A stretch of DNA of 47,705 bases, taken from NCBI GenBank assembly GCA_009377715.1, contig WHTN01000009.1:1-47705 (forward strand). The letters run 5' to 3'. Origin of the DNA: Dehalococcoidia bacterium (lineage in GTDB: Bacteria; Chloroflexota; Dehalococcoidia; SM23-28-2; WHTN01). Both the position numbers and the translations under genes were made by a program. Below the pieces are notes generated by a model. It ran no database searches. It was not told where the DNA came from and saw only the letters and a program-made list of their open reading frames with translations. Every line of letters starts with the position of its first letter. The first letter of the stretch is position 1. Shown here piece after piece: positions 7,570-37,540 of the stretch.

Positions 7570-9051
7570 ATGGATAACGAACGGATGAACGACGAGCAGC
7601 ATACAAATATCGGCGCAACGCTGACGTTTGACCTGAGCCGGCCCGGCCGCGTCGGTTGTTCACTGCCGGAATGCGACGTGCCGGAGGCAGAGATCCCACC
7701 CGCCGAGCTTCTGCGCGATGACCTTCGCCTGCCAGAGCTATCGCAGCCAGACGTTGTGCGATACTTTCTGGCGCTCAGCCGGTTGAACTATAGCGTCGAT
7801 ACCGGCTTTTATCCTCTCGGTTCCTGCACTATGAAGCACAACCCCAAAGTGCACGAAGACCTCGCCCGCCGGCCCGGCTTCGCAGATATCCATCCGCTTC
7901 AGCCGCCCGAGACCGTCCAGGGCGCTCTCGCAGTTATGCACAACCTCCAGCGCTGCCTGGCCGAGATCACTGGTATGGACGCGGCCACGCTCGCTCCCGC
8001 CGCGGGCGCGCAGGGTGAGCTTACGGGCATTTTGATAATCAAGGCCTATCTCGCCGACGCCGGCCAGAGCCATAGGCGTAAAATCCTCGTTCCAGATTCA
8101 GCGCACGGCACAAACCCGGCGACGGCGGCTATGGCCGGTTTCGAGGTCGTGACCGTCGCCTCCGATAAAGACGGCGATACCGATATGCAAGCGCTTCAAG
8201 TCGCGCTCGACGACGATGTTGCAGCGATGATGCTGACACTGCCCAACACGCTGGGGATCTTCGATAGAGATATTCTAACGATCGCCGAAATGCTGCATGC
8301 CAAAGGCGCTCTACTCTACGGCGACGGCGCTAACCTCAACGCGATCGTCGGACGGGCGCGCTTCGGTGATCTCGGTTTCGATGTAGTACACCTCAACCTG
8401 CACAAGACCTTCAGCACGCCGCACGGCGGGGGAGGGCCCGGCGCGGGGCCAGTGTGCGTTAAAGCGCCACTCGCCACTTACCTGCCCACACCGGTCATCG
8501 AACAGACCGATGGCGGCTACCGTACCCTCCGCCCGCCACACAGCATCGGCAAGCTGCAAGCGTTCCACGGCAACTTCGGCGTGCTGCTGCGCGCTTACGC
8601 TTATCTGAGATCGCTGGGCGCAGACGGTTTTCGTGAAGTGAGCGCCAATGCGGTGCTAAACGCCAATTACGTAAGGGAGCGGCTGCGGGGCGCTTACCAA
8701 TTGCCGTACGGCCGTTGTGCTATGCACGAAGTCATCGCTTCGGCGAGCAAGCAGCGGGCTAAGGGCGTCCGAGCTTGGGACGTGGCGAAGCGTCTCATCG
8801 ATTACGGCTTCCACCCACCGACCGTGTACTTCCCGTTGATCGTCGAAGAGGCGATGCTAATTGAGCCTACGGAGACCGAAAGCAAAGAGGCGCTCGACGC
8901 TTTCTGCGAAGCGCTCCTCGCCATCGCGCGCGAAGTTGAAGAGACGCCAGAAGTCGTAAAGAGCGCGCCGCACGACACGCCAGTCGGCCGGTTGGACGAG
9001 GCGACGGCTGCCCGGCGCCCCGTGTTGCGCTGGCAGCCACGAAACGACTAA
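7570..9051 (+). CDS. gcvPB: glycine dehydrogenase (decarboxylating) subunit 2
   Basis: 493-aa C-terminal half of the two-subunit P protein, carrying the PLP cofactor. The Schiff-base lysine is Lys279 in LHKTFSTPHGGGGPG. Other family blocks are FYPLGSCTMKHNPK, PAAGAQGELTGI and SAHGTNPATAAMAG. The first ATG (7570) has a poor ribosome site; the ATG at 7585 is an alternative start. A dispersed repeat occupies the gap to gcvPA. With gcvPA, gcvH and gcvT it makes the glycine cleavage complex complete except for the L protein. Confidence 0.96.
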   Translation: MDNERMNDEQHTNIGATLTFDLSRPGRVGCSLPECDVPEAEIPPAELLRDDLRLPELSQPDVVRYFLALSRLNYSVDTGFYPLGSCTMKHNPKVHEDLARRPGFADIHPLQPPETVQGALAVMHNLQRCLAEITGMDAATLAPAAGAQGELTGILIIKAYLADAGQSHRRKILVPDSAHGTNPATAAMAGFEVVTVASDKDGDTDMQALQVALDDDVAAMMLTLPNTLGIFDRDILTIAEMLHAKGALLYGDGANLNAIVGRARFGDLGFDVVHLNLHKTFSTPHGGGGPGAGPVCVKAPLATYLPTPVIEQTDGGYRTLRPPHSIGKLQAFHGNFGVLLRAYAYLRSLGADGFREVSANAVLNANYVRERLRGAYQLPYGRCAMHEVIASASKQRAKGVRAWDVAKRLIDYGFHPPTVYFPLIVEEAMLIEPTETESKEALDAFCEALLAIAREVEETPEVVKSAPHDTPVGRLDEATAARRPVLRWQPRND

Positions 9052-19291: not shown

Positions 19292-21586
19292 CTAGTGGGC
19301 TTCTTCCTTGTCCTTTAAAGCTCTCAAGACGCGTTCTGGTGTTAGGGCTAGTTTACTCAGCCTTACGCCAATAGCATCATGAATCGCATTTGCTACAACG
19401 GCCGGAGGCGGCAAACATGTCACCTCACCGATGCCTTTGGCTCCGTAGGGACCCGTGCCCATATACCCCTCCACAAGAACCGTCTGGATCTCCGGGGAAA
19501 TATTAGCCGTCGGCATCAAGTAATCAACGAAAGTTGGATTGATAGTCCTGCCGTTTTCATCGAAAATGAACTGCTCACAGAGCGCCTGGCCGAGGCCCTG
19601 AACTACGCCGCCCTCGACTTGTCCCTCAACTCCATCTGGGTGAATGGCGAATCCAACGTCGTGAACGGCGACATATTTCAAGACGTCTACGCGACCAGTG
19701 TCAACGTCGACCTCCACTAATGCGGCGTGCGTAGCACAACCGGGCGATGTACCTTTCTCCTTCTCCTCGGCAGCGTCAGCTTCGGGATTATAGTAGCCGC
19801 GGCCGATTACCTCGCCGAAGATGAAATGGACCATACTGGCCGCGGCTGCGATCGGCAGCATTTTGTCAGGGGATGCCCTTACCCGGATCTGTTTATCCTT
19901 TGCCTCCAACTCATCCGCACCAACTCCCAGCCTCCGGGCCACGACCTCGAACAGCTGGTTGCGGGCATCTACGGCCGCTAGTCTCACAGCGTTTCCGCAC
20001 GCCATCGTCGTGCGGCTACCCACGGTGCCGAAATCCCATGGGCTGTTGTCTGTGTCCACGCCTAGAACGCTGACATCATCCAGCATAATGCCAAGCTCCT
20101 CGGCCACTATCATGGGCAGGGCAGACTTTATAGCAGTGCCATAATCTACCTTGCCGATCATGACAGTCGTGCTACCATCCTCATTGACCTTGACCAGAGC
20201 GCTTCCTCCCGGTCCGGCACCCTCGCCCCACATGGTGCAAGCGAACCCGATACCTTGGTTTGCTTTCAATGGTCGCTTTCGCCAACCAATTTCTTCCGCG
20301 GCTCGTACGAGCGTCTCTTCTAGCGGCACATCCCGCAGGAGATGGCCAGTGGGTGTTCTGTCTCCAGGTTTCAGCATGTTTTTGAGCCGGAATTCCACGG
20401 GATCCATGCCCAACCGAGACGCGATGGTATCCGTATGGGACTCAACCGAGAACGTCGCCTGAAGCCCACCGGGGCCCCGCACGGAGCCACAGGTTTGCTT
20501 GTTCGTATAGACCATATAACCGTCGATGTGAACGTTTGGTAATCGATACCAACCAGCGAGCATGTTCGTCGCCATCATACCGGCAAGGGAGCTCATCCCT
20601 GCGTAGCCTCCGGCGTCAAAAATGAGCCTTGCCTTGCGTGCCAAAATCCGCCCGTCTCGCGTGACTCCGGTCTGAATCCAGGTCTTTGTGGCTGCCCGAA
20701 CAGTTGTCGCGATGGATTCCTCTGCTTTATCTAAAACGATGGTGACAGGCCTCCTGGCTTTTATCGCCAGCAACCCGACGATGGGCTCAAGGCTCCCCCC
20801 TGAAACTATGCCGCCAGACTTACCACCAAATCCGCCCCCCATATTAGGAACGATAATCCTCACCTTGCTGACAGCGATTTGAAGCAGCCGAGCGACTTCC
20901 GTTCGCACGGGAAATGGGCTCTGAGCACTTGTCCAAATTGTCAATTTACCTTGTGCCTCGTCATATTCAGCACTCGCGACTTTCGGCTCAAGGTATTGGG
21001 CGTGAACCATCTGCGTTTCGTAGGTCTCTTCGATGACTACGGCTGCTTCAGCCATAGCCGAGTCGGCATCCCCAGTATGAACGGCTGCATAATGACAAAC
21101 GTTTTTGAAGTTCGCATCTTCCGGCAGGTTCGCCGGTATTGGGACCTCCTCATGTATTATCGGTGCGTCGGGCAACATGGCTTCCTCAGGATCCAGAAGA
21201 GGAGCCAGAGGCTCGTATTCCACTTTGATCTTGCTTAGCGCCAATCTGACAGTTTCTTGAGAGTCCGCGGCTACCGCCGCTACCGGGTCACCAAGGAAAT
21301 ACACCTTATCCCGAGCTAATATGTACTTATCATTCACCTGCCGCCCATAGCGGATATCCGGGGCATCGCGCGCAGTTATTACGGCATACACGCCGGGCAC
21401 GGTTTCGGCCTCAGCAGTGTCAATCCCGAGTATGCGGGCATGCGCATGCCGGCTTCGCAAGATACCGCCCTTTAGGGCATTTGGGATAATCAAGTCTATT
21501 GCATAGATACCCTGTCCTGTTACCCGCTCGACACCGCCCTGACGAGTCACGTTCTTACCGAGGTGAATATACTCTTTAGTCGCCAT
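19292..21586 (-). CDS. xanthine dehydrogenase-family hydroxylase, molybdopterin-binding subunit
   Basis: 764-aa large subunit of a molybdenum hydroxylase, which inserts water-derived oxygen into electron-poor C-H bonds of N-heterocycles, aldehydes or CO. Seen are the N-terminal a/b hammerhead (GIYAIDL...GGILRSRHAHARIL), the cofactor-binding NMGGGFGGK, SVRGPGGLQATF, and the catalytic Glu in GAKGIGEVTCLPPPAVVANAI. No CoxL-type AYXCSFR loop was seen, so it is not a form I CO dehydrogenase. The start is ATG at 21586, overlapping the 2Fe-2S gene by 11 bases. Together with the two genes upstream it forms an S-M-L type enzyme. Confidence 0.9.
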   Translation of the reverse strand: MATKEYIHLGKNVTRQGGVERVTGQGIYAIDLIIPNALKGGILRSRHAHARILGIDTAEAETVPGVYAVITARDAPDIRYGRQVNDKYILARDKVYFLGDPVAAVAADSQETVRLALSKIKVEYEPLAPLLDPEEAMLPDAPIIHEEVPIPANLPEDANFKNVCHYAAVHTGDADSAMAEAAVVIEETYETQMVHAQYLEPKVASAEYDEAQGKLTIWTSAQSPFPVRTEVARLLQIAVSKVRIIVPNMGGGFGGKSGGIVSGGSLEPIVGLLAIKARRPVTIVLDKAEESIATTVRAATKTWIQTGVTRDGRILARKARLIFDAGGYAGMSSLAGMMATNMLAGWYRLPNVHIDGYMVYTNKQTCGSVRGPGGLQATFSVESHTDTIASRLGMDPVEFRLKNMLKPGDRTPTGHLLRDVPLEETLVRAAEEIGWRKRPLKANQGIGFACTMWGEGAGPGGSALVKVNEDGSTTVMIGKVDYGTAIKSALPMIVAEELGIMLDDVSVLGVDTDNSPWDFGTVGSRTTMACGNAVRLAAVDARNQLFEVVARRLGVGADELEAKDKQIRVRASPDKMLPIAAAASMVHFIFGEVIGRGYYNPEADAAEEKEKGTSPGCATHAALVEVDVDTGRVDVLKYVAVHDVGFAIHPDGVEGQVEGGVVQGLGQALCEQFIFDENGRTINPTFVDYLMPTANISPEIQTVLVEGYMGTGPYGAKGIGEVTCLPPPAVVANAIHDAIGVRLSKLALTPERVLRALKDKEEAH

Positions 21587-22082
21587 AAACCTGCTCCGCC
21601 AGTTGGATTGAGGCTGCAAGCTGAATCGCTTCAATTATTTTTGTGTAACCCGTGCAGCGGCAGATGTTCCCAGATATTACATCTTTTATGTCATCGACCG
21701 TAGGATTCGGATGCTCATCAAGCAGAACCTTAGCGGACATAATAAAGCCCGGCGTGCAATAACCACATTGCGAGGCGCCCGTCTCTATGAAGGCGATCTG
21801 CACGGGATGAAGCTTGCCGTTCGAGGCCAGCCCTTCCACGGTGGTTATTTCACCGCTGTCAGCAGCGGCAGCGAGCGTGACACAGGAATTGACCAATTTA
21901 CCGTTCATGTACACCGTGCAGGCTCCGCATTCGCCAGTGCTGCAACAGACCTTCACTCCCTTGTAACCTAGCATGTCCCTTAAGAAATCCATCAGGGAAA
22001 GGTAAGGCTGAAGGCTTGCGTGATGTTCTTTACCGTTGACATTAAGGGCGATCTCTATCATCGGATGTTCATCCTTAGACAT
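21576..22082 (-). CDS. molybdenum hydroxylase 2Fe-2S subunit
   Basis: 168-aa small subunit carrying two [2Fe-2S] clusters that pass electrons from the Mo centre to FAD. First cluster: VCCSTGECGACTVYMNGKLV with a following NSC. Second, in the helical domain: SQCGYCTPGFIM and NICRCTGY. The start ATG (22082, MSKDEHPMIEI) overlaps the end of the FAD-subunit gene by 8 bases. Upstream in-frame codons belong to that gene. Confidence 0.92.
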   Translation of the reverse strand: MSKDEHPMIEIALNVNGKEHHASLQPYLSLMDFLRDMLGYKGVKVCCSTGECGACTVYMNGKLVNSCVTLAAAADSGEITTVEGLASNGKLHPVQIAFIETGASQCGYCTPGFIMSAKVLLDEHPNPTVDDIKDVISGNICRCTGYTKIIEAIQLAASIQLAEQVYGD

Positions 22083-22954: not shown

Positions 22955-24238
22955 TTAGGGCATTGATTTGATGCCCGTCCAAGTTGGGGTCGTCATCATG
23001 TTACGCCACATGTTATAAAACGCTCGCTGGTTTACTTCTCCCACTCTGGGACCTAACTGACCCGGGAACTCCTCGCTCCGACGTTCTTGCCCTAAACCCA
23101 TCTGGTAATTAAATGGGTACCGCTTAGCGACCGTACCGCTGCTGGCACTTGTGCACTGATTCCAATTCTCCCCATCGTCTTGCTCCAGCATCCCAGCCGG
23201 GCTGAAGGACTGCAGGTAAGTGGTACGTAGATCGTCTTTAACATCGGGCGGAGCCATTTTATCGACGAGGCACCAAGCCCACACCTCTGTTTTCTGTGGA
23301 CCGCGAGGTTGCCAAACTCGGATCGTCATAGTCCCGTTTAGAATAGAAAAGTTCGGGAAGATTGTACCCGCCGACGATGTGAGATGGGCACGCGTCGCAC
23401 CAAGGTGCTGCTCCATACTCGTGAGGGTTTCCTGTTTGTAACGTTGTATGAAATCAGCATCAACCGTTACTTGGGATATTGAGCGCGCGAGCGGATCCGT
23501 GTACACGATTGTGCCATGCCCGTATCTGGAAGACGTTGTAAATCCTTCCCGGTTAAGCGAAACCGGGCCCCTAACTTTTTGGGCGGAGATGTGACTAACA
23601 GGAATGTGGTACGAATCGCCGATGAAGTTGTCCGCGGCAAGCTTCCAATTGCAGGGCATGATCCACCGGTGGACACCGCCTACAGTTTCCATTCCACCGG
23701 GAAGCGGATCCACTACCCTATCAAGATACCAGGCGAAATCGCCTAGGTATTCGGTCAACGGAGGAGCCGTAAGGTCAAACGTTCCAAAGATCAGCCCCTT
23801 GTACGATTCCACCTGGGCCACAGGCACCAAGCCCCACTGCTCCACATCCAGCTCTTCGTAGTAGTACTCTTTGTACCCGGGGACGCCGACCAGTTTGCCG
23901 TCGTTGCCGTACGTCCAGCCGTGGTACGTACATGTAAAGGCAGCCGCGTTCCCTTCGTCCGCCCTGCACACACGCATACCACGATGGCGGCAGGTATTGA
24001 GGAAAGCGCCGATGTTCCCCCGCGAATCGCGCACAACCAGGATGGGGTCCTCACCCATATACGCGGAGACGAAGTCCCCTGGGTTCGGTATCTGCGATTC
24101 ATGAGCTAGGTACAGCCAGCAGCGGGCAAAAATCTGCTCTAGCTCTTGTTCATACACTCCCTGGTCCACGATTAGCTTTCGACTTATGAGACCGCGTTTC
24201 ATATCCACTAGGCCTTCGATATTCTCGACATCTAGCAC
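22955..24238 (-). CDS. Rieske ring-hydroxylating oxygenase alpha subunit (A)
   Basis: 427-aa alpha subunit. The Rieske [2Fe-2S] ligands are C83/H85 and C103/H106 (CRHRG and CTYHGWTY). The catalytic mononuclear iron site is in DNFIGDSYHIPVSH: H211 and H216, with Asp208 as the likely electron-transfer bridge; a later Asp completes the triad. Residues about 29-155 are nearly identical to subunits C and D in this operon, whereas the rest of the catalytic domain differs. It probably forms an oxygenase with the lone beta subunit at 18524. No ferredoxin or reductase gene is in the operon. The substrate is unknown. Confidence 0.9.
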   Translation of the reverse strand: MLDVENIEGLVDMKRGLISRKLIVDQGVYEQELEQIFARCWLYLAHESQIPNPGDFVSAYMGEDPILVVRDSRGNIGAFLNTCRHRGMRVCRADEGNAAAFTCTYHGWTYGNDGKLVGVPGYKEYYYEELDVEQWGLVPVAQVESYKGLIFGTFDLTAPPLTEYLGDFAWYLDRVVDPLPGGMETVGGVHRWIMPCNWKLAADNFIGDSYHIPVSHISAQKVRGPVSLNREGFTTSSRYGHGTIVYTDPLARSISQVTVDADFIQRYKQETLTSMEQHLGATRAHLTSSAGTIFPNFSILNGTMTIRVWQPRGPQKTEVWAWCLVDKMAPPDVKDDLRTTYLQSFSPAGMLEQDDGENWNQCTSASSGTVAKRYPFNYQMGLGQERRSEEFPGQLGPRVGEVNQRAFYNMWRNMMTTPTWTGIKSMP

Positions 24239-24310
24239 GATCGTACCTCCTACCGCTTAAAGTATTCCTTATCATCTACTTCATAGCAAATCCGAACACC
24301 AAAACCGGAT

Positions 24311-25069
24311 TTAATGGAAAACTCTGCCGCCATCCACTACCAACATCTGGCCGGTAATAAAGGCGCTGTCATCCGACGCCAGGAAGAGAACGGTGCCGAC
24401 TAGGTCTTCTGGCGTCTCGACTCGCTTGATGGAGCCCATGACCGAACGGCTCTCAATCTGGGCTGGATCGGTCTTCTTCACTATCTCCTCACTCGCTGTC
24501 AACCCGGGGCCGATCGAGTTGACCCTAATGCCGAACTCGCCCAGCTCGCGACACAAGGCGCGCGTAAGGCCCATGACGGCAGCTTTAGAGGCGATGTAGT
24601 GGATAAGGCCGCCGCCACCAGGGCTCAGGAAGATGGCAGAAGCGATATTAATAATGCTACCGCCTCCCTGCGAACACATGTGGGGCACGACGGCTTTCGA
24701 ACATAGGTACACGCCTCGCACGTTCACCGACATCACTTTGTCCCATTCCTCGAGCGGTATCTCATCCCATTTATGGCGAGGCAGGGCTGCAAAGAGAGCA
24801 GCGTTGTTTACCAAGACGTCGACGCGTCCGAAGCGATCAATGGTTTGCTGCACCATGCGGTTAATGCTTGCGTCATCCGATACATCTACGGTGACAGCCA
24901 ACGCCTCTCCGCCTTTGTCTTCGATCTCCCGCTGAGCGTTAACCGTGGCAGTCTCGTCGATATCCGCCGCCACGACCTTCGCCCCCTCCGCTGCCAGGCC
25001 GCGGACATACGCCCGGCCGATACCTTTCCCGCCGCCTGTGACGATAGCTACTTTTCCCGCGAGTCGCAT
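24311..25069 (-). CDS. short-chain dehydrogenase/reductase
   Basis: 252-aa classical SDR. The cofactor motif TGGGKGIGRA is at residues 11-20, then VLVNNAA, catalytic Ser in IINIAS and Tyr-Lys in HYIASKAA, and the C-terminal GQMLVVDGGR. An acidic ADIDE after beta2 favours NAD over NADP. AAGGAGG precedes the ATG. In an oxygenase operon it could act as a cis-dihydrodiol or alcohol dehydrogenase; this follows from context, not from any substrate motif. Confidence 0.88.
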   Translation of the reverse strand: MRLAGKVAIVTGGGKGIGRAYVRGLAAEGAKVVAADIDETATVNAQREIEDKGGEALAVTVDVSDDASINRMVQQTIDRFGRVDVLVNNAALFAALPRHKWDEIPLEEWDKVMSVNVRGVYLCSKAVVPHMCSQGGGSIINIASAIFLSPGGGGLIHYIASKAAVMGLTRALCRELGEFGIRVNSIGPGLTASEEIVKKTDPAQIESRSVMGSIKRVETPEDLVGTVLFLASDDSAFITGQMLVVDGGRVFH

Positions 25070-25191
25070 AGCCTGTCCTCCTTAAGACCTTAGGTACATA
25101 ATCCTATGCTACTGTCCCCTCTGGCAGTGGAGCTTAATAGAGACGGTAGAAATGGTTTAGCGAGGCTCTGCCTAGCCGGTAAGATACCAGC

Positions 25192-26502
25192 TTAAGCCTC
25201 TGCCATCACATGTTTGTAATGCCGCCAGACGCCGCGCTGGCCGACCTCGGCTGTATACTGTGTGGTGAGGGCGGGTCTTCCGAAGTCGTCTAGCTCCATC
25301 GCCTCGCTGTGACGCCCGCGGTTTAGGACAGACCAGTCGTATACCTTGGCGCGCGTGCCCAGTTGGATGCGGGTGAACATGTCCATGTCGTCCGGCGAGA
25401 TGAACCCCGCCGGCCCAAAGCCGCTCTGGAGCGACCTGAGGCGCGCGAAATTGACATCGTCAGGAGCCCCCTTCAAGGCCGTTGGATAGTAGTAGAGATG
25501 CGTTCTGTTTACGGACACCGGCTGAATCATGCGGTAGGCGTCGTGCAGAATCATTAGGTTCGGAAAGACCATGATATGGGGAGGTCCACCCTTCGCTAGC
25601 CACTCGGCCTTCTCACGCCCCAGCCTCTTGGCTACCCCCTCTATCACTCTGGGATCAAGCGTGCCGGTGGCGCTAGTGGCCCGTACGCTATCGTCCATAC
25701 CTCGATAAGCCCGGAAGTTGTCCAGTATCGTATGACCTCCGCCCAGGTCTCGCTGCACCTTGTTGTCATCCTCCTGCTGCATGGGAGCTACTTGGCGGAA
25801 AGGCCTAGCAGCGCCGAGAGCGGTCTGATGGGTGAAAGGGGCGTGGTAGCCATCCGTAAGGTTCTCCAATTGGAGCTTCCAATTGGCGTGCACCAGTACC
25901 CTTTGCCGACCTGCCCTGGCGATGATCTCTCCTTCCGGCGCCATATCGCAGAAGCGATCGATGTAGTCCTTCGCCCCTCCGATGTACTCATCAAAGCTCT
26001 GGTCTGTCGGGCTGAGGCTGGCGAAGATGAAACCGCGGTGGACGACGACTCTGGGCACTTTCATGAGGCTCCAGTCCTCCTCACGGAAGTTCGTGGGATC
26101 GTAGCCTCCGCGGCCGCCCTGGAAAGTCGCCCCTACGTTGCGCCCGGTATTGGCGTAGCTCCAGCCGTGATAGGCGCAGCGGAAATAGAAGGAATTGCCA
26201 CTCTCCTCCTGACAAACTGTTGCCGAGCGGTGGCGACAGCGGTTCATGAGGACGTGAATCTGGAGGTTCTCATCCCGGCTGATGATGATGGGCTGTAGGC
26301 CGATGAGCCGGGTGATATAATCCCCCGGTTCGCCCACCTCGCTTTCGTGCGCTATGAAGACCCAGCCGCGATGGAAAATCTTGTCCATCTCGTCCTGAAA
26401 GATGGCAAGGTCTTGGTAAAGTCGGCCGTTTATCCTAAAGCCGTCGTCATCCTCAGCGACAAGTTCCTCATAATTGATGGCAGGTGGTGAGACGATGCTC
26501 AT
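25192..26502 (-). CDS. Rieske ring-hydroxylating oxygenase alpha subunit (B)
   Basis: 436-aa alpha subunit of a different subfamily from A, C and D. The Rieske ligands are C89/H91 (CRHRS) and C109/H112 (CAYHGWSY). The catalytic iron site is in LENLTDGYHAPFTH. It has HVLMNRCRHR and NWKLQLENL in the usual places and a longer Gly-rich insert (TFQGGRGGYDPTNF) after the Rieske domain. A strong AGGAGGG precedes the ATG. It probably acts on a different intermediate from its neighbours. Confidence 0.9.
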   Translation of the reverse strand: MSIVSPPAINYEELVAEDDDGFRINGRLYQDLAIFQDEMDKIFHRGWVFIAHESEVGEPGDYITRLIGLQPIIISRDENLQIHVLMNRCRHRSATVCQEESGNSFYFRCAYHGWSYANTGRNVGATFQGGRGGYDPTNFREEDWSLMKVPRVVVHRGFIFASLSPTDQSFDEYIGGAKDYIDRFCDMAPEGEIIARAGRQRVLVHANWKLQLENLTDGYHAPFTHQTALGAARPFRQVAPMQQEDDNKVQRDLGGGHTILDNFRAYRGMDDSVRATSATGTLDPRVIEGVAKRLGREKAEWLAKGGPPHIMVFPNLMILHDAYRMIQPVSVNRTHLYYYPTALKGAPDDVNFARLRSLQSGFGPAGFISPDDMDMFTRIQLGTRAKVYDWSVLNRGRHSEAMELDDFGRPALTTQYTAEVGQRGVWRHYKHVMAEA

Positions 26503-26553
26503 ATTAAATCCCTCCTATAATTTGTGCTTCAATTGTAAGCAGCCTCGCGGAAC

Positions 26554-27867
26554 TTAACAATGACTCTGCAATCTTTCAGCGAGGCCATCAACTCCCGCCC
26601 CAGTTTCCTCCCCCATTAGCTGGGCCCAGCGTCCGTAGAATCCACGCTGATTGTGCTCGTTTACATTAGGCGCGAGCGACCCTGGGTACTCCTCATCATG
26701 CCGCTCGCGCCCTCGGCCCATCTGATAGTTGAATGGATAGCGCCGGGCTAGCAATCCTTGACTGGTCTTGGTGCATTCGTTCCAATTCTCGCCATCGTCC
26801 TGCTCGAACATGCCGGCCATGCTGAAGGACCGCAGATAGTTCACGCGCATGGCTTCCTTTACCTCTGCTGGGGCTGCCTTATCAACGATGCACCATGCCC
26901 ACACCTCTGCTCGATCAGGCCCGCGGGGGTGCCACACACGGATTGTATTCAGCGGCGCCAGGAGCGAGAAATTAGGGAAGACAGTGTTTGCGCTCGTCGC
27001 AAGACGCGACCGCTGCGGCCCAAGCCGGCCTTGTGCCTCCGTGGCTATAGATGTCATGTAGTTACCGAGCAATCCGCCACCGGCTAAGCTCAAACCTTCT
27101 CCTCGGTTCAAAATCAAGAGGATCCCATGCCCGTTGCCGCCGTTCGCGGACAGCCGCTCGAAGCGTAACGGGTCTGGCCTAGGCTCACCTTCTCCAGCCA
27201 AAGAACCCACCTTGTGGGCCGAGATGTGGCTCACTGGCACGTGGTAGGCATCGCCGGCGAAGTTGTCCGCAGCGAACTTCCAATTGCACTTCATCGTCCA
27301 TTTTTGGACGCCGCCGATGACTTCTGTGCCGCCCTCGCGTCGATCCAAGAGAATATCCAAGTAATAGGCCATGTCGCCCAGATACTCCGTTAGCGACGGC
27401 GCCTGCGGGTCGAAGGTGCCGAATATCAGCCCCTTGTACGATTCCACCTGGGCCACAGGCACCAGCCCCCACCGCTCCATATCGAGCTCTTCGTAGTAGT
27501 ACTCCTTGTACCCCGGTACCCCTACCAGCTTGCCATCATTCCCATACGTCCAGCCGTGGTATGTACATGTAAAGGCAGCAGCGTTGCCTTCGTCCGCCCG
27601 GCAGACGCGCATACCACGGTGACGGCAGGTGTTGAGAAAGGCGCCTATCTGGCCGCGGGAATCCCGGACTACCAGTATCGGGTCTTCGCCCATATAGGCG
27701 GAGACGAAGTCTCCTGGATTGGGGATCTGCGACTCATGGGCCAGGTATAGCCAGCAGCGAGCGAATATGCGCTCCAACTCTTGCTCATAAACTTCGCCGT
27801 CAACGAAGAGGCGCCTGTCGACCAGACCGCTTTCGGTATCCACAAGACTCTGGGTAGATATAGCCAT
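26554..27867 (-). CDS. Rieske ring-hydroxylating oxygenase alpha subunit (C)
   Basis: 437-aa alpha subunit, paralogue of A and D. Rieske ligands are C81/H83 and C101/H104; the catalytic site is DNFAGDAYHVPVSH with H209 and H214. The first ~150 residues differ from A at only a few positions; the segment after the iron site (GEGEPRPDPLRFERLSANGG...) is unique. AAAGGAG precedes the ATG. It lies between the DapA-family gene and alpha subunit B. Confidence 0.9.
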   Translation of the reverse strand: MAISTQSLVDTESGLVDRRLFVDGEVYEQELERIFARCWLYLAHESQIPNPGDFVSAYMGEDPILVVRDSRGQIGAFLNTCRHRGMRVCRADEGNAAAFTCTYHGWTYGNDGKLVGVPGYKEYYYEELDMERWGLVPVAQVESYKGLIFGTFDPQAPSLTEYLGDMAYYLDILLDRREGGTEVIGGVQKWTMKCNWKFAADNFAGDAYHVPVSHISAHKVGSLAGEGEPRPDPLRFERLSANGGNGHGILLILNRGEGLSLAGGGLLGNYMTSIATEAQGRLGPQRSRLATSANTVFPNFSLLAPLNTIRVWHPRGPDRAEVWAWCIVDKAAPAEVKEAMRVNYLRSFSMAGMFEQDDGENWNECTKTSQGLLARRYPFNYQMGRGRERHDEEYPGSLAPNVNEHNQRGFYGRWAQLMGEETGAGVDGLAERLQSHC

Positions 27868-27905
27868 AACCGAGGTTCTCCTTTCCCGTTTTGGCTTCTC
27901 GAATC

Positions 27906-28895
27906 CTAGGGCTTCGGCGCCGGCGCCTTTATGTATTTCTTCCGCAGCTCAGCCCAAGCCTTGCCGTGGGCCTCTGCCATCCTCTGCCAGTGCTCGGGCA
28001 GATCGAAATACGGCGATCGAGAGGGCCCAGCCTTGACATAACCAGCGGCGTTCATTCGCCACTTCTCAGACTGAATATTGTAATTATCGAAGCCAGCCCG
28101 CTCGTCTGGAGGGTACATAGGCGGTATTGAATGGATATCCGCCTCTATCTCCTGCATCTTCTTTTCGTCGCCCCGCAAAATGGCGTCCGCCAAGGCTACT
28201 AACGGCTCAGGACCTAGCGCGGCAGTAGTGGCCCAGGTCGCTATCATCTTCAGGCCGGCCTCTTTGTAGGTACTGTACACGCTGTGCGTGAAAGCGTAAG
28301 GCGCCAGGAAGTTAATTTGGTGGCCTGCCACTCGAAGGTCGTCCGCCAAATGATCGATACCGTAGGAGATCTTCGTGGCGATTACGGTCGGAGCCTCCCT
28401 GGCCAAGCCCTCCCAAAACTCAGCAGGGAAGGAAAACTTGAAGAAGCGGGCATTCGCATAGATAGTGATGGGCATGTCCGGAACGACTTCACTCAGCTCA
28501 GCGTAGAAGCCGATGGCATTCTTCATAGTGGGTGTCTGCCACATAGGAAGGCCCACGAAGGCGCCATCAGCGCCCAACTCTTTGAGGCCGCGCATCTGGC
28601 GGACCACTTCCTTGCTGCCCAGGGCAGTGGCGCCGGCGAAGATGGGCACACGTTGGCGGGCTACTTGCACAACTGTGTCGACAAAGTCTTTCTTCTCCTC
28701 CCATAAGAGGGTGGCGCACTCGCCGGTGGTGCCGCAGAGGCCTATGGCGCCAATGCCAGCCTGGATCAGGTTTTCGGTCATGCGTGCCGACTCTTCTAGG
28801 TCTACCGAATCAGTGGCGCCTGCGCCCCCCGCTCCGTCTTTACAAGGTGTGGGCGGGAGGGCAACAAGCCCTCTAATGTCGCTTGCTGTAAGCAT
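27906..28895 (-). CDS. DapA-family aldolase/lyase
   Basis: 329-aa class I (Schiff-base) aldolase of the dihydrodipicolinate synthase/N-acetylneuraminate lyase family. Features are GIGAIGLCGTTGECATL, PIFAGATALGSKEVVRQM, ITIYANARFF and VIATKISYG with the probable Schiff-base Lys. The Tyr of the usual YN/YG segment appears in YANARF. The second ATG (28895) is chosen because AAGGAGG ends right at the first ATG (28901) but lies 6 bases from the second. In degradation operons such enzymes act as hydratase-aldolases, for example releasing pyruvate from aromatic side chains. True lysine biosynthesis is unlikely here. Confidence 0.82.
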   Translation of the reverse strand: MLTASDIRGLVALPPTPCKDGAGGAGATDSVDLEESARMTENLIQAGIGAIGLCGTTGECATLLWEEKKDFVDTVVQVARQRVPIFAGATALGSKEVVRQMRGLKELGADGAFVGLPMWQTPTMKNAIGFYAELSEVVPDMPITIYANARFFKFSFPAEFWEGLAREAPTVIATKISYGIDHLADDLRVAGHQINFLAPYAFTHSVYSTYKEAGLKMIATWATTAALGPEPLVALADAILRGDEKKMQEIEADIHSIPPMYPPDERAGFDNYNIQSEKWRMNAAGYVKAGPSRSPYFDLPEHWQRMAEAHGKAWAELRKKYIKAPAPKP

Positions 28896-28939
28896 TCGCA
28901 TCCTCCTTCATCGTTTCTGATGTGGCAAGTACGGCTATT

Positions 28940-30625
28940 TTAGCTCTTCAGCCACATCTCGTCATATCGATGGGGCTCTTCCGAAAGGGTCTTGAAACCT
29001 TGAAGGCGCGGATTGATCGCGACCTCGCCATTTGAAGAGTACATAGGGAGCATGACCGCTTGGTCGATCAGACGCTTTTGGAGCTCCAGCAGGATCGACT
29101 TCCGCCGCTCGGGGTTGTCCAAGATGACAGCCTGTTGCTCCACAAGTTCGTCGAAGCGCTTGTCCCCTAGCAACCTGTATACACCGGCCTCGGCCCCCCT
29201 CGTATGAACCCAGGTATATAGGTAAGAGTTGATACTCGGGCTGGTCCCCTTCTGAGAACCGTAGTAGAACTCCATGTCGCCCCGCCCCCATATCCTTTCG
29301 GTGATCTCCGTCTTATCAGTGGCCTTCAACGATGCCGTGACGCCCAATTCTTTGAAGCAGCTGACTACTAACTCGGCTCCTGCCTGACTTTCGGGTATAG
29401 TGAAATAGTCTGCGGTAGGCTTCCAAGCCGACAGGTCTACCCCCGCTGCGGAGAGCAACTGCTTAGCCATCTGCACGTCGCGGCTGAGCGTGCTCTTAAT
29501 ATCCCCTTCCGGTAGGACCCAGTCGATGGCGGGCACGAAGATACCTCCATTGATCCAGCCGCTGCCGAACACTACGTCGCGGACCAGGGCTTCACGGTCG
29601 ACGAGCCTGCTAATTGCCTGTCGTACCCTTTGATCCTTGTAAATAGGCGTAGCGGTGGATATCCAGAGCTTCTGGCCTCCGCTTGAGCCAACAAGCTTGG
29701 CATCGTCCACCCGCAGATCGGGAACGCTCTGGCGAAGAAGCCTCGTAACCTGACCATTGGTACCGATATCAAGTATCTGGCTTGTCCTGAAAGCGGCCTG
29801 GGCGGTCTGAGGATCGAGAATGGCATTGAGCTCGTAGGAGTCAGCGTAGGGCGCGGGCCCGGCGAAGTAGCCAGGATTACGCTTCATCTTCGCCCGCTGG
29901 TCCGGCACCCATTCCTCAAGGATCCAGGCGCTCGTGCCTATGGTAGGACCGTTCTTGAGATCGCCATTGACGGACACAGCCTCCAACGCGACGATCTTAG
30001 ATCGTGAGTCCCCAACCGCGTTCAAGAAGTCTGCATCCGGGGTCTTTAGGGTAATGCGCACTGTGCTATCGTCCACAGCCTCCACTTTGTCCATGGAAGC
30101 CAAAATCCCGGCGTTAGCCCTCTCCGCGATTTGGCGCTGGTAGCTTAAGATAACGTCTTGAGCCGTGAACTGGCGGCCGTTAACGGGCGAAAGGTTCTGG
30201 AACTTGACGCCCTGGCGCAGCTTAAATATGTAGACTGTTGGCTCAGGGGTTTGCCAGCTCTCAGCGAGATCGCCAGTCTGCGTCAGTTGTTGTGGGTACT
30301 TAGTGAGGTCCCATTTCATGAGGCGGCTATAGGCCATTGCCGGCCCTTGATTGTGGAGGCCAGCGAAGGAGTTTTGGTGCGGATCCATATGTGGCGCGAT
30401 GCTTGCCTGGGAGACAAAACTCAGATTACCGCCGGCTTTAGGTTGCTCGGCCGTGACCCCCGGGGAAGCCGTGGCGCTTGGCGTAGCCGCCTCTTCATCC
30501 TCGCTACAACCGATAACCGCGGCGACGGCAAGGCCTGCGCTGCCAAGCACCGTGCCTTGCAGCACGCGCCGGCGGCTTAGGCGCCTCTGCCAGAAGTGAT
30601 CCCAGTAGCTATTCTCTTGTGTCAT
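28940..30625 (-). CDS. ABC transporter family-5 solute-binding lipoprotein, Tat-exported
   Basis: 561-aa extracytoplasmic solute-binding protein of the DppA/OppA type. The N terminus has a twin-arginine signal (RRLSRRRVLQG), a hydrophobic stretch (LGSAGLAVAAVIG) and a lipobox ending at Cys40 (VIGC), followed by an Ala/Thr/Pro/Glu linker. The binding domain has AESWQTPEPTVYIFKLRQGVKF and NPGYF blocks typical of the family. It should be a membrane-anchored lipoprotein delivering the substrate. No permease or ATPase genes are in the operon, so it must use components encoded elsewhere or act as a receptor. A relic of a similar gene lies at 47100-47287. Confidence 0.88.
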   Translation of the reverse strand: MTQENSYWDHFWQRRLSRRRVLQGTVLGSAGLAVAAVIGCSEDEEAATPSATASPGVTAEQPKAGGNLSFVSQASIAPHMDPHQNSFAGLHNQGPAMAYSRLMKWDLTKYPQQLTQTGDLAESWQTPEPTVYIFKLRQGVKFQNLSPVNGRQFTAQDVILSYQRQIAERANAGILASMDKVEAVDDSTVRITLKTPDADFLNAVGDSRSKIVALEAVSVNGDLKNGPTIGTSAWILEEWVPDQRAKMKRNPGYFAGPAPYADSYELNAILDPQTAQAAFRTSQILDIGTNGQVTRLLRQSVPDLRVDDAKLVGSSGGQKLWISTATPIYKDQRVRQAISRLVDREALVRDVVFGSGWINGGIFVPAIDWVLPEGDIKSTLSRDVQMAKQLLSAAGVDLSAWKPTADYFTIPESQAGAELVVSCFKELGVTASLKATDKTEITERIWGRGDMEFYYGSQKGTSPSINSYLYTWVHTRGAEAGVYRLLGDKRFDELVEQQAVILDNPERRKSILLELQKRLIDQAVMLPMYSSNGEVAINPRLQGFKTLSEEPHRYDEMWLKS

Positions 30626-30734
30626 GTTGACCTACCTCCATGCTGCTGTGAATTTGAGGTTCGGCGACAAGGCTGCGTCCGCCAACCTTTAAGGAACGCT
30701 ATTGCCCTTAGGCCTTCAGCCATCTTGTAGGTTT

Positions 30735-32021
30735 TCACCCAGGCTGGCCGGGCAACATCCCTGACCAGCTCTTGCCGCTCATTACCTCCGCCCAACGGCG
30801 ATAGAAGCCTCTTTGGTTGTGCTCGCTCACCCTCGGCCCGAGCCATCCTGGAAACTCTTCACTCACTCGCTCATGGCCCAGCCCCATCTCATAATTGAAG
30901 GTGTAGCTACGGGCGACGTGGCCGCGGGTGGAAGCCGTCACCTGGCTCCAGTTCTCGCCGTCCGCCTCCTCGGTTATCCCGCCCGGGCTGAACGTCTGGA
31001 GGCACTGGACTCGCGTATCGTTTTTAATCTCCGCGGGCGCAGCCTTGTCGACAATGCACCACGACCAGACCTCCATCTTGTCCGGTCCACGCGGGTGCCA
31101 GACACGGATGGTGCTGGTGCCCCAAAGGGTAGAGAAGTTCGGAAAAACTGTCCCTGCCGATGCGGATAAGCGGGCTCGTGCCGGCCCCAGATGTCTTTCC
31201 ATCTCTGGAAGAATCTCCGAAAGATAGCTGCCCGGAGGGTCTTCGCGGTCCGGATTCATCATCATTCCGTGTCCGTTGCCGGGGCTGGCAGAGAAATCCT
31301 TGGGGTCATTTCGACCTATCCTCGTTTGGCCCGTCGCGCTGCCAGTAAAGGGCCTCACTTTAGTCGATGAAGCATGGGTAATGGGGAAGTGGTAAGAATC
31401 ACCGATGAAATTCTCCGAAGCGAGCTTCCAGTTGCCTGGGATAATCCACTTGTGCACCCCGCCTATTATCTCAGAGCCACCATCCCGCCGGTCCACAAAA
31501 ATATCGAGGTAGTAGGCCATGTCGCCCAAATATTCCAGCAGCGATGGCGCAGTAGGGTCGAACGTGCCGAAGATCAGGCCTTTGTAGGAATCGACCTGGG
31601 CCACTGGGACAAGCCCCCATTGCTCCATGTCTAACTCTTCGTAGTAGTACTCCTTGTAGCCCGGCACCCCCACCAGCTTGCCATCGTTGCCGTAAGTCCA
31701 GCCGTGATAGGTGCAGGTGAAAGCCGCGGCGTTGCCTTGGTCGGCGCGGCAGACGCGCATGCCACGGTGGCGGCAGGTGTTAAGGAAAGCGCCTATCTTG
31801 CCGCGGGAGTCGCGGACCACCAGTATCGGGTCTTCGCCGATGTAGGCCGAGACGAAGTCGCCCGGGTTCGGTATTTGCGACTCGTGGGCCAGGTAGAGCC
31901 AGCAGCGGGCGAAAATGCGCTCTAGCTCTAACTCGTATAGGCCCTTGTCTATGAAGACCGCCCGATCAATTGAACCGCGTTCCGCGTTCACCAGATTACC
32001 GACATCTACAGACAATGACAT
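30735..32021 (-). CDS. Rieske ring-hydroxylating oxygenase alpha subunit (D)
   Basis: 428-aa alpha subunit, first gene of the operon. Rieske ligands are C83/H85 and C103/H106; the catalytic site is ENFIGDSYHFPITH with H211 and H216. Its Rieske half is nearly identical to A and C; the C-terminal half is its own, with NDPKDFSASPGNGHGMM. The ATG at 32021 follows GGAAGGAAGG. An upstream in-frame start (32111) would add 30 unconserved residues. Confidence 0.9.
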   Translation of the reverse strand: MSLSVDVGNLVNAERGSIDRAVFIDKGLYELELERIFARCWLYLAHESQIPNPGDFVSAYIGEDPILVVRDSRGKIGAFLNTCRHRGMRVCRADQGNAAAFTCTYHGWTYGNDGKLVGVPGYKEYYYEELDMEQWGLVPVAQVDSYKGLIFGTFDPTAPSLLEYLGDMAYYLDIFVDRRDGGSEIIGGVHKWIIPGNWKLASENFIGDSYHFPITHASSTKVRPFTGSATGQTRIGRNDPKDFSASPGNGHGMMMNPDREDPPGSYLSEILPEMERHLGPARARLSASAGTVFPNFSTLWGTSTIRVWHPRGPDKMEVWSWCIVDKAAPAEIKNDTRVQCLQTFSPGGITEEADGENWSQVTASTRGHVARSYTFNYEMGLGHERVSEEFPGWLGPRVSEHNQRGFYRRWAEVMSGKSWSGMLPGQPG

Positions 32022-32454
32022 GCCTTCCTTCCGCCATCTGCGTTCCGCCCCTATCGATGGCCGCCACGCAGACCGCTCATGTTTTTCCCATTTCGCACAG
32101 CAGACTTGCACACTTCACTAGTGTGCGGATGAACCACACAGCCGAATGGCAATACCAATCGAGTTATAACCTTCCATGCTTAATATGGCGGGGATTTCCT
32201 CTCAAATCAACCGACAAATGTAGTCGATTGTTGCTTTTAGCAACTCACGGCGACGACTGTCGGCCTGTACAGAAGAGTGCCGTCGTCAGGAGCGGCGAGA
32301 TAACAGCAAATTGAGCATATACCGGACCACGCTAGGCACCGATGCTAAAGCTGCGAACTCTCGGAGCGTCTGCCAGCCTACGCGTCTAATCGATGGTGGA
32401 CGAACTTGAGATCATCCTAACTCGGCCTCGGCGAAGGCAGTACGAACAGGGTTC
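32022..32454. promoter_or_regulatory. operator-promoter region of the oxygenase operon
   Basis: Gene-free control region between the TetR terminator and alpha subunit D. It holds a perfect dyad GCACACT-TCACT-AGTGTGC (32108-32126) and a second one GTTGCT-TTT-AGCAAC (32230-32244). Both are candidate sites for the TetR-family protein encoded next door. Minus-strand -10-like elements (TATTAA, TATAAC) lie between them, but I cannot fix a promoter. The rest holds nothing I can support. Confidence 0.45.
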
Positions 32455-35272: not shown

Positions 35273-37540
35273 CTATTTAAGGCCGAGGGCGCTGAGTGTA
35301 CTGCGGCCTTCGGAAGATAGCTGGATGCCCTGCGCAGTATCGTACATGCGTTGGAGGGCACGAAGTACATATTCCGCCGGGCGCATACCTTCGCTAGTGC
35401 TGTGGGCAGCCAGCTCGACCAGCGTGCTGTAGGCGGAATCGACATGCCAGAAGTAGGAGAGCAGCCAGGCCAGTTCGCGCTCATCGCTCGGCACAGGTAT
35501 GTCCGCGATGTCGATTATCGAATCGGTCACTTTAGTGTAGCGCAGGATGCCCGCCTTGTCGCTCGCATCCTTGCCGTAGTACCGCCTTCGCAGCAGCTCG
35601 TCGACCCGCTGCTCGTACTCGGCGGCGCCATAAATATTCTGCGGCAGCCACTCCCGTAGGTCGCGGACTTCTTTGCCGTCCTTATCGATAATCGCCACGG
35701 CCACGTCCGAGCCGAGGATAGAGTCGTGCTCGAACTTGACGGCTTTGCGCATAAGCGCTTCTTGCAGCATCAGCGTCACTTCGCGAGCGATCTTCTTGTA
35801 GCGTGGGCCGCTAGCTTCGTCGTTGGTCTCTGCGCCCAGGCCACCCGTGTTGAAGGTGTAAAACTCCTGCTCCAGGCCATCCCGTTCGAGTTGTTGGAGG
35901 ATGTAGTACATCAGATTAGCGTTCTCGTCCTCCAGCCCCATGATGAACGGGTCGGAGAAGTACTCCACGTACGGCCGCCCGATGGCCCCAGTCGCCGCGC
36001 CCATCTGCACTGCCTCGCCGTACATCAACACACGCACGTACTGCTTCATCGTCAGGCGACGCAGCGGCGGCACAACGGTGTTTTGGCGCATTACGGCCTG
36101 CCAGAGCACCCGGTCCATGTCCTCCATCGGCACGTGGACAGATTCCTTAAGCCGGCCGCCCGAAAGGGAAGAGAGCAAGGGCTGGGCGCCCTTCCGTTCC
36201 AGCAGGCGGGTACGGGATAAGATCATACGCATATTCCGCGTAGGGTTCTGCATGAAGTCCGGCCTGCCGCTTCGGGGGTCGACCGGCACGTTCTCCAATG
36301 TCTCTTGAGGATTCGGCGAATCCGGCGTGCCTCGCAGCGCATCGTACTGGATCGCGTCATCTTCGCGCGTTAAGCCAGTCGGCACGGCGTAGAAGTTGTT
36401 TTCCGTGCCATCGATGCTATAAGCGATGCGCAGGCTCGGGTCGCGGTTGCTTCGCACAGGTTTCGCTAGCGGCTGAATGAGAATGATATCGTCGTTCATC
36501 GGGTAAATGCCCTCTTGCGGGTCGTCCTGTAATCCGAGCGCCTTAGCCAGATCACTATCGGTCAGTTCGATCATGATCGTGATCGTACTCTTGCCGTGCA
36601 GCGAAGGGCCCGCGGTCACAGTAGCCACATGGTTCATCTTCCCATCGAGCGTTTTGACGCGAGCCACGCTCAGTGCCGCCTGTAGAGCAAGGCCGTTAGC
36701 CTCCTTGACCTTATACATCGCTATAGTGAGCGGACCCATTTTGTGCTCGCCAACGTAATCGAAACCTAGGTGCAGCGAAAGCCCTTTGGTGGGCGCTTTA
36801 AAGATAAGTTGAGTTATGCCAATATCCATTAGCCGGGTCTTCAGATTTTCCGGAAGGCCAAGTATCTCCAACCAGGTCGGTATGGATACCTCCAGAATAT
36901 CGGGTTCGCCCGACCGCTGGTTTTCTGGCAGGTCGAACGTTAGCTGTCGCCAGCAGTACGGCATTTGAAGATAGCGAGTGCCAAAGACCAGTTGTCGCGC
37001 GTGGTAGGAGCGATCGGCAGCATCGCAGATCTGGCGGTCGGACTGCACGATCGTGTCGCCCCGGTCGAAGCTCTTCTGCATGAAGTCCGTTATGTAAGGC
37101 AAGACCTCGGCGAACAGTGCTTGGTTCTCCTCGCTGAAGGCGATGGCATCGCGATTTCGGATGAAACCGTCGATGAAGTACTGCGTAAGGTCCGGGCGAC
37201 GAGTAACGCCGTTTTGGCTGTAAAAGGCCAGGCCACCGCTGTCGAGCTTGAACACTGCTTCGGGGCCAGCCCTGCGGGCGGCTTTGCCCTCGGCGTTCAC
37301 TTTGGCGCCTTCTTGGTTGATCTGGTCGAACTCGTTCAACAACGCTTCTTGCTGGTCGCCGGGCAAGTCTTGAAACACCTCCATGTGGTCGACCAGCCAC
37401 TGGTCGCTCGGGTTGAAGAACTCGCTGCCGGGCTTATGTCCCTTCCTGGCTGTCGCGACGAGTTCGTCAAGGGCAGACTTGAAGGTTGGATCGATGTCAG
37501 GGCCCTCAAGCGACGACCGCGTCTTGGATTCGTTCACCAT
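35273..37540 (-). CDS. divergent phosphoenolpyruvate carboxykinase (ATP)-like protein
   Basis: 755-aa protein. From residue ~270 on it follows the order of ATP-dependent PEP carboxykinase: GEHKMGPLTIAMY (PEPCK: GEMKKGMF), AGPSLHGKSTITI with Lys317 (PEPCK P-loop GLSGTGKTTL), NDDIILIQP (GDDE), TLENVPVD with a later NPTRNMR (LLENV, TENTR), NTVVPPLRRLTMKQYV (GVLPPVSRLT), MGAATGAIGRPYVEYFSDPF (AGTERG..P.PTFS..F) and EFYTFNTGG (LVNTGW). Compared with my memory of E. coli PckA, K212 and the Arg of PPVSRLT are kept. The K213 equivalent is Met, the P-loop glycines are altered, and I see no H232 equivalent. It is 200 residues longer than PckA. Function as a true PEPCK is therefore doubtful. GGGAG precedes the ATG. 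Confidence 0.72.
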   Translation of the reverse strand: MVNESKTRSSLEGPDIDPTFKSALDELVATARKGHKPGSEFFNPSDQWLVDHMEVFQDLPGDQQEALLNEFDQINQEGAKVNAEGKAARRAGPEAVFKLDSGGLAFYSQNGVTRRPDLTQYFIDGFIRNRDAIAFSEENQALFAEVLPYITDFMQKSFDRGDTIVQSDRQICDAADRSYHARQLVFGTRYLQMPYCWRQLTFDLPENQRSGEPDILEVSIPTWLEILGLPENLKTRLMDIGITQLIFKAPTKGLSLHLGFDYVGEHKMGPLTIAMYKVKEANGLALQAALSVARVKTLDGKMNHVATVTAGPSLHGKSTITIMIELTDSDLAKALGLQDDPQEGIYPMNDDIILIQPLAKPVRSNRDPSLRIAYSIDGTENNFYAVPTGLTREDDAIQYDALRGTPDSPNPQETLENVPVDPRSGRPDFMQNPTRNMRMILSRTRLLERKGAQPLLSSLSGGRLKESVHVPMEDMDRVLWQAVMRQNTVVPPLRRLTMKQYVRVLMYGEAVQMGAATGAIGRPYVEYFSDPFIMGLEDENANLMYYILQQLERDGLEQEFYTFNTGGLGAETNDEASGPRYKKIAREVTLMLQEALMRKAVKFEHDSILGSDVAVAIIDKDGKEVRDLREWLPQNIYGAAEYEQRVDELLRRRYYGKDASDKAGILRYTKVTDSIIDIADIPVPSDERELAWLLSYFWHVDSAYSTLVELAAHSTSEGMRPAEYVLRALQRMYDTAQGIQLSSEGRSTLSALGLK

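Follow-up and report, generated by a model that had tools for sequence, protein, structure and literature searches.

The window, a stretch of 47,705 nucleotides from a Dehalococcoidia bacterium, encodes a long protein that resembles phosphoenolpyruvate carboxykinase (PEPCK) and seems to have lost part of its active site, which raises the question of whether it is a PEPCK at all and, if so, how it might work. The open reading frame of 755 codons with an ATG start is present as claimed (Table 1), and the motifs AGPSLHGKST, NDD, LENV, VVPPLRRLT and FNTGG, from whose order the preliminary description had recognised a PEPCK-like protein, were all found in it. The protein had also been described as about 200 residues longer than usual, which agrees with 755 aa against the 540 aa of E. 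coli PckA. This extra length consists of an N-terminal and a C-terminal helical part and several inserts, nearly all of which were confidently modelled.

A genome-contig scan uncovered 71 loci that encode relatives, here called family D; most of these align almost end to end at 57-67% identity. Its carriers are about 70 metagenome-assembled genomes (MAGs) of SAR202, Dehalococcoidia or Chloroflexi, the sole exception (L055, 53% identity) being labelled Planctomycetales. The Pfam scan of the window protein gave PF01293 (PEPCK_ATP; 41 bits against a gathering score of 26.5, E 1.3e-10) and no match to PF00821 (PEPCK_GTP). Among NCBIfam models only the PEPCK subfamily NF006821 was matched, below its cut-off (146 bits vs 369), and TIGR00224 was not. 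Searching PDB sequences with the single protein by phmmer returned only chance antibody matches, and a profile built from family D returned none, so the family is truly remote; PEPCK was reached only via a mixed alignment and a fold search. An AlphaFold2 model based on 65 family D sequences (mean pLDDT 90.2, pTM 0.91) was compared with the PDB using Foldseek, and matches 1-35 were all ATP-PEPCKs (E 5e-22 to 2e-19, TM by target ~0.7, best 0.70), followed by GTP-PEPCKs with E 2e-16 and weaker. The predicted fold of the family D protein is that of PEPCK, and the PEPCK-like identity first read from motifs thus holds at the level of modelled structure.

Table 1. Features of the family D gene in the window, with E. 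coli PckA equivalents
Feature	Position	Strand	Basis
Family D PEPCK-fold protein (755 aa)	35273..37540	-	ORF, Pfam, AlphaFold2, Foldseek, 65-member alignment
N-terminal extension, ~residues 1-97, mostly helical, beyond E. coli length	37250..37540	-	alignments and model secondary structure
R114-R115 codons; R114 = E. coli R65, substrate carboxylate site, kept	37196..37201	-	alignment columns
Y262-V-G-E-H-K-M-G269 = E. coli Y207-G-G-E-M-K-K-G214	36734..36757	-	alignment
Q287 codon = E. coli metal ligand H232, replaced; Gln in 65/65	36680..36682	-	alignment
P-loop G311-PSLHGKS-T319 = E. coli G248-LSGTGKT-T256	36584..36610	-	alignment
N349-D350-D351, kinase-2 motif = E. coli G267-D268-D269; both Asp kept	36488..36496	-	alignment
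V386 codon = E. coli K288, replaced	36383..36385	-	alignment
R438 codon = E. coli R333, kept	36227..36229	-	alignment
N564-T565-G566 (NTG; N440 = N564), kept in every PEPCK_ATP group	35843..35851	-	alignment
C-terminal extension, ~residues 656-755, mostly helical, confidently modelled	35273..35575	-	alignment, AlphaFold2

Active-site residues were then read from an alignment of 65 family D members with E. coli PckA as the reference, whose numbering is given first. In the E. coli enzyme, K213, H232 and D269 are the substrate-side metal ligands. All 65 family D proteins have Met, Gln and Asp at these positions (K213 is M268 in the window protein), and only the Asp remains. The loss of one of the two metal-site lysines and of the metal-binding His, suspected in the preliminary description, is therefore real; of the six residues singled out there (K212, K213, H232, K254, D269 and R333), the other four are kept. 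In GTP-PEPCK, the Lys, His and Asp at the corresponding positions have been named as metal ligands (PMC4370629). Since K213 and H232 belong to the PEPCK metal site and both are replaced, ordinary catalysis cannot be assumed.

Much of the remaining active site is unchanged: R65 (R114), Y207 (Y262), G209 (G264), E210 (E265), K212 (K267), S250 (S313), K254 (K317), T255 (S318), D268/D269 (D350/D351), R333 (R438) and the NTG motif are invariant in the 65 proteins, and F413 (F532) is also kept. The ATP-PEPCK substrate-site set of R65, Y207, G209, K212, S250 and R333 is thereby complete. Two further changes were found, namely a new and invariant His in place of M211 (H266), and the replacement of K288, which had gone unlisted in the preliminary description: this position holds Val in 41 and Met in 24 of the 65 proteins, and Lys in all other groups examined. 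Two shorter PEPCK_ATP proteins of the order to which the window belongs (L075:1009-2628 (+) and L076:1009-2526 (+)) also have Met for K213 while keeping His232, and the tree suggests that this change arose independently of family D.

The P-loop GPSLHGKS is invariant in family D; the canonical kinase-1a sequence GLSGTGKT is absent, while the generic pattern GxxxxGK[ST] is intact. G251 has become L314 and T252 has become H315, so that the reported change of the P-loop glycines is correct for one glycine only. I considered and rejected the reading of this loss as a sign of inactivity, because GTP-PEPCKs and a group of Chloroflexota proteins termed group C also lack that glycine; the GTP-PEPCKs of Chloroflexota (FPSACGKTN, GKKC, EHM) do so with both metal residues kept. 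Group C (e.g. L087:499-2091 (+), which scores 356 bits to NF006821, slightly below the cut-off) is a further divergent PEPCK group of Dehalococcoidia with the P-loop [SA]L[ST]ANGKT in place of GLSGTGKT.

The PEPCK_ATP proteins of Dehalococcoidia fall into groups with very different Pfam scores: 650-730 bits for the canonical group A, 155-270 for B0, B1 and B2, 113-150 for C and 18-44 for D. Within the PEPCK_ATP tree, family D forms one clade (support 100/100) whose stem is 2.1 changes per column long, and the placement of family D beside group C is weakly supported (80/70) and carries a long-branch warning. NF006821 (PRK09344.1-3 PEPCK subfamily) is the nearest curated model and takes in group B Chloroflexota proteins above its cut-off of 369 bits, with group C slightly below and family D at 133-158 bits. 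The tree places family D with these groups, with N or Q rather than G preceding the DD motif. The equivalents of both K213 and H232 are present in groups B1, B2 and C, and B0 lost only K213, whereas family D lost both. The proposal of a new branch is supported by a single clade, a long stem and scores that do not reach the threshold of NF006821, the one NCBIfam PEPCK model matched.

Family D is patchily distributed, since a search of 400 Chloroflexota genomes with its profile recovered a full-length member in the window's own genome only; among 245 Dehalococcoidia genomes that are 80% or more complete it occurs in 6, and 79 of the 245 have any PEPCK_ATP member, of one type only in all except one genome (G204). 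Ratios of dN/dS between 0.045 and 0.105 in eight close pairs indicate strong purifying selection.

Most carriers appear to have no other PEPCK. A second PEPCK_ATP gene was found in none of the 69 D-carrying Chloroflexota genomes reached through the loci (49 plus 20 further distinct ones), nor in the window's own genome, which brings the total tested to 70. By comparison, 73 of 239 D-free genomes have a PEPCK_ATP gene, and the deficit in the first 49 carriers is significant (Fisher p 2.6e-7), with the reservation that this ignores shared ancestry and that the MAGs are incomplete. GTP-PEPCK was absent from all 50 genomes tested. Only the L055 genome, 1 of 50 reached through D loci, carries a second PEPCK_ATP gene, a canonical PckA (719 bits), and family D is thus not a simple replacement there. 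A PPDK-type gene is present in the window's genome, where PEP could therefore also be made from pyruvate.

The genes next to family D differ between lineages, and most score below equivalog cut-offs, so that their identity holds at family level only. Enzymes that act on malate, oxaloacetate or glyoxylate are frequent among them. At 12 loci the next gene downstream, in the same orientation, encodes malate synthase (gap 27-1271 bases). I weighed this as evidence of a conserved operon and downgraded it, as all 12 loci belong to one clade and represent a single inherited event. Elsewhere family D adjoins an RraA-type aldolase (L007, and likewise L014 and L037) or lies near a class-V aminotransferase closest to the aspartate-glyoxylate aminotransferase BhcA (L012 and L054; L048 by resemblance), a DHDPS-family aldolase (L029 and L052), an amidohydrolase-2 protein (L003 and L004) or, on the opposite strand, a pyruvate-carboxylase/oxaloacetate-decarboxylase-like subunit (L022). 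In L055 (4920-10403 (+)), a single ORF of 1828 aa joins a type I GAPDH (with SCASCTTN) and a triosephosphate isomerase (TPI) to a C-terminal family D domain, behind a hydrophobic, signal-peptide-like N-terminus. This fusion was likewise downgraded as strong proof of gluconeogenesis given this start, the canonical PckA and a second, ordinary TPI in the same genome. Overall, the genomic context speaks for a function at the oxaloacetate/PEP step or close to it.

The Lys-His-Asp Mn site is treated as essential in PEPCK chemistry, where oxaloacetate binds Mn directly, and in yeast PEPCK exchanges of the equivalent Lys and His reportedly cut activity severely, which makes the metal site the crux. 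I propose, with moderate confidence and from sequence comparison, that family D is an active P-loop phosphotransferase occupying the PEPCK slot (oxaloacetate/PEP) whose Mn site was rebuilt or lost. Being the sole PEPCK-family gene in the 70 Chloroflexota carriers tested, it probably does the same or a closely related job in a new way. It would interconvert oxaloacetate and PEP (+ CO2), with reaction, direction and phosphate donor all predicted, and would feed gluconeogenesis with carbon of the TCA/glyoxylate pool. The alignment shows that both the nucleotide-phosphate/Mg site (K317, S318, D350/D351) and the residues anchoring the substrate (R114, Y262, G264, K267, S313, R438) are kept. The metal may be held by D351 with Q287 or M268, perhaps with H266 or the P-loop H315; alternatively, catalysis may dispense with a substrate-side metal. 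More tentatively, family D could be a PEPCK that works without the Lys-His-Asp Mn site (with Met/Gln/Asp, with or without His266/His315, or with no substrate-side metal) and that serves an abundant lineage of the deep ocean as its only carboxykinase.

The main rival is a kinase or carboxykinase of PEPCK fold whose substrate has become a different small carboxylate, e.g. a 2-oxo or hydroxy acid from aromatic or glyoxylate breakdown, in which case the losses of K213, H232 and K288 would reflect the new substrate. The preliminary description had likewise held that losing at least two of the residues it listed supports a new function; the loss stands, but the context favours the oxaloacetate/PEP step. 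The exceptionless replacement of two metal ligands and K288, the very long stem, the ring-hydroxylating oxygenases near the window gene, the varying neighbours and the retention of canonical PckA in L055 speak for such a shift, but all PEPCK substrate anchors are kept, no other PEPCK was found in the 70 genomes, and both the GAPDH-TPI fusion and the malate synthase neighbours indicate C3/C4 central metabolism; on balance I consider it somewhat doubtful. It is unlikely that family D converts oxaloacetate or PEP with PPi or GTP in place of ATP: the P-loop sequence PSLHGKS resembles PSACGKT of the GTP type more than LSGTGKT of the ATP type, K288 is lost and PPi-dependent PEPCKs exist (PMC8100219), but the P-loop Lys/Ser and the DD motif are kept as in NTP users and Pfam gave no PEPCK_GTP match. 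The suggestion of a non-catalytic or regulatory relative, to which the loss of two of three metal ligands might point, did not hold up and is very improbable, given that the P-loop Lys, both Asp, R65, S250 and R333 are invariant in 65 proteins, that purifying selection is strong (dN/dS 0.05-0.1) and that this is the sole PEPCK-family gene in 70 genomes. That family D is an ordinary PEPCK whose changes are an alignment artefact is scarcely credible: the first reading was made by eye and the family D profile alone finds no PDB sequence, but the metal-site stretches GE-x-K-x-G and L-A-x-[HQ]-A align gaplessly through intermediates (L075 GEVKMG...AIHAG; window GEHKMG...ALQAA), which already contradicts it.

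In comparison with known systems, family D shares with ATP-PEPCK PckA (EC 4.1.1.49, PF01293; E. coli 1AYL/2PXZ) the fold, the motif order, the P-loop Lys, Asp268/269, R65, Y207, K212, S250, R333, F413 and NTG. It differs in being 18-21% identical and ~215 residues longer, in K213M, H232Q, K288V/M and GPSLHGKS, and in falling below, or failing to match, the curated PckA models. GTP-PEPCK (PF00821) has the same fold and a P-loop without the same glycine (FPSACGKT), but keeps the Lys-Lys and His metal residues, and family D has no match to its model. The PPi-type PEPCK, reported to be unrelated to the ATP and GTP enzymes (PMC8100219), offers a further link between oxaloacetate and PEP that uses neither ATP nor GTP, but family D has a P-loop. 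Family D shares its fold and superfamily with ATP-PEPCK while lacking active-site features that define that enzyme, and its function is putative.

SAR202 are among the most widespread bacteria of the dark ocean and live in deep water. A conserved family that lacks two of the three metal ligands and yet stands alone at their oxaloacetate/PEP step would mean either that enolates can be stabilised in a second way or that a new small-molecule kinase exists. I found no description of family D in the literature, and gluconeogenesis genes of SAR202 were stated to be present in general terms only (PMC5864207). As curated models miss or under-score family D, gluconeogenesis in SAR202 may be misjudged from annotation.

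Several other observations were made at these loci. In the TPI domain of the L055 fusion, the N-terminal stretch (IAGNQKTYPV...) seems by eye to come after the C-terminal part, a possible circular permutation; BLAST confirmed the C-terminal part only. The adjoining 1199-aa ORF (L055:1196-4795 (+)) is a class I fructose-bisphosphate aldolase, extended at the N-terminus by a hydrophobic stretch; its long C-terminal half was named by no Pfam or NCBIfam model and, by eye, is possibly related to GlpX-type FBPase. In the window, positions 22955-32111 (-) hold four genes for Rieske ring-hydroxylating oxygenase alpha subunits (at 22955, 25192, 26554 and 30735), alongside a family-5 solute-binding protein and a gene of the DHDPS family, and this region looks like an aromatic-compound degradation cluster. 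A molybdopterin-binding subunit of the xanthine-dehydrogenase type lies at 19292-21634, and a 493-aa gene of the glycine dehydrogenase P-protein C-terminal type at 7570-9051 (+).
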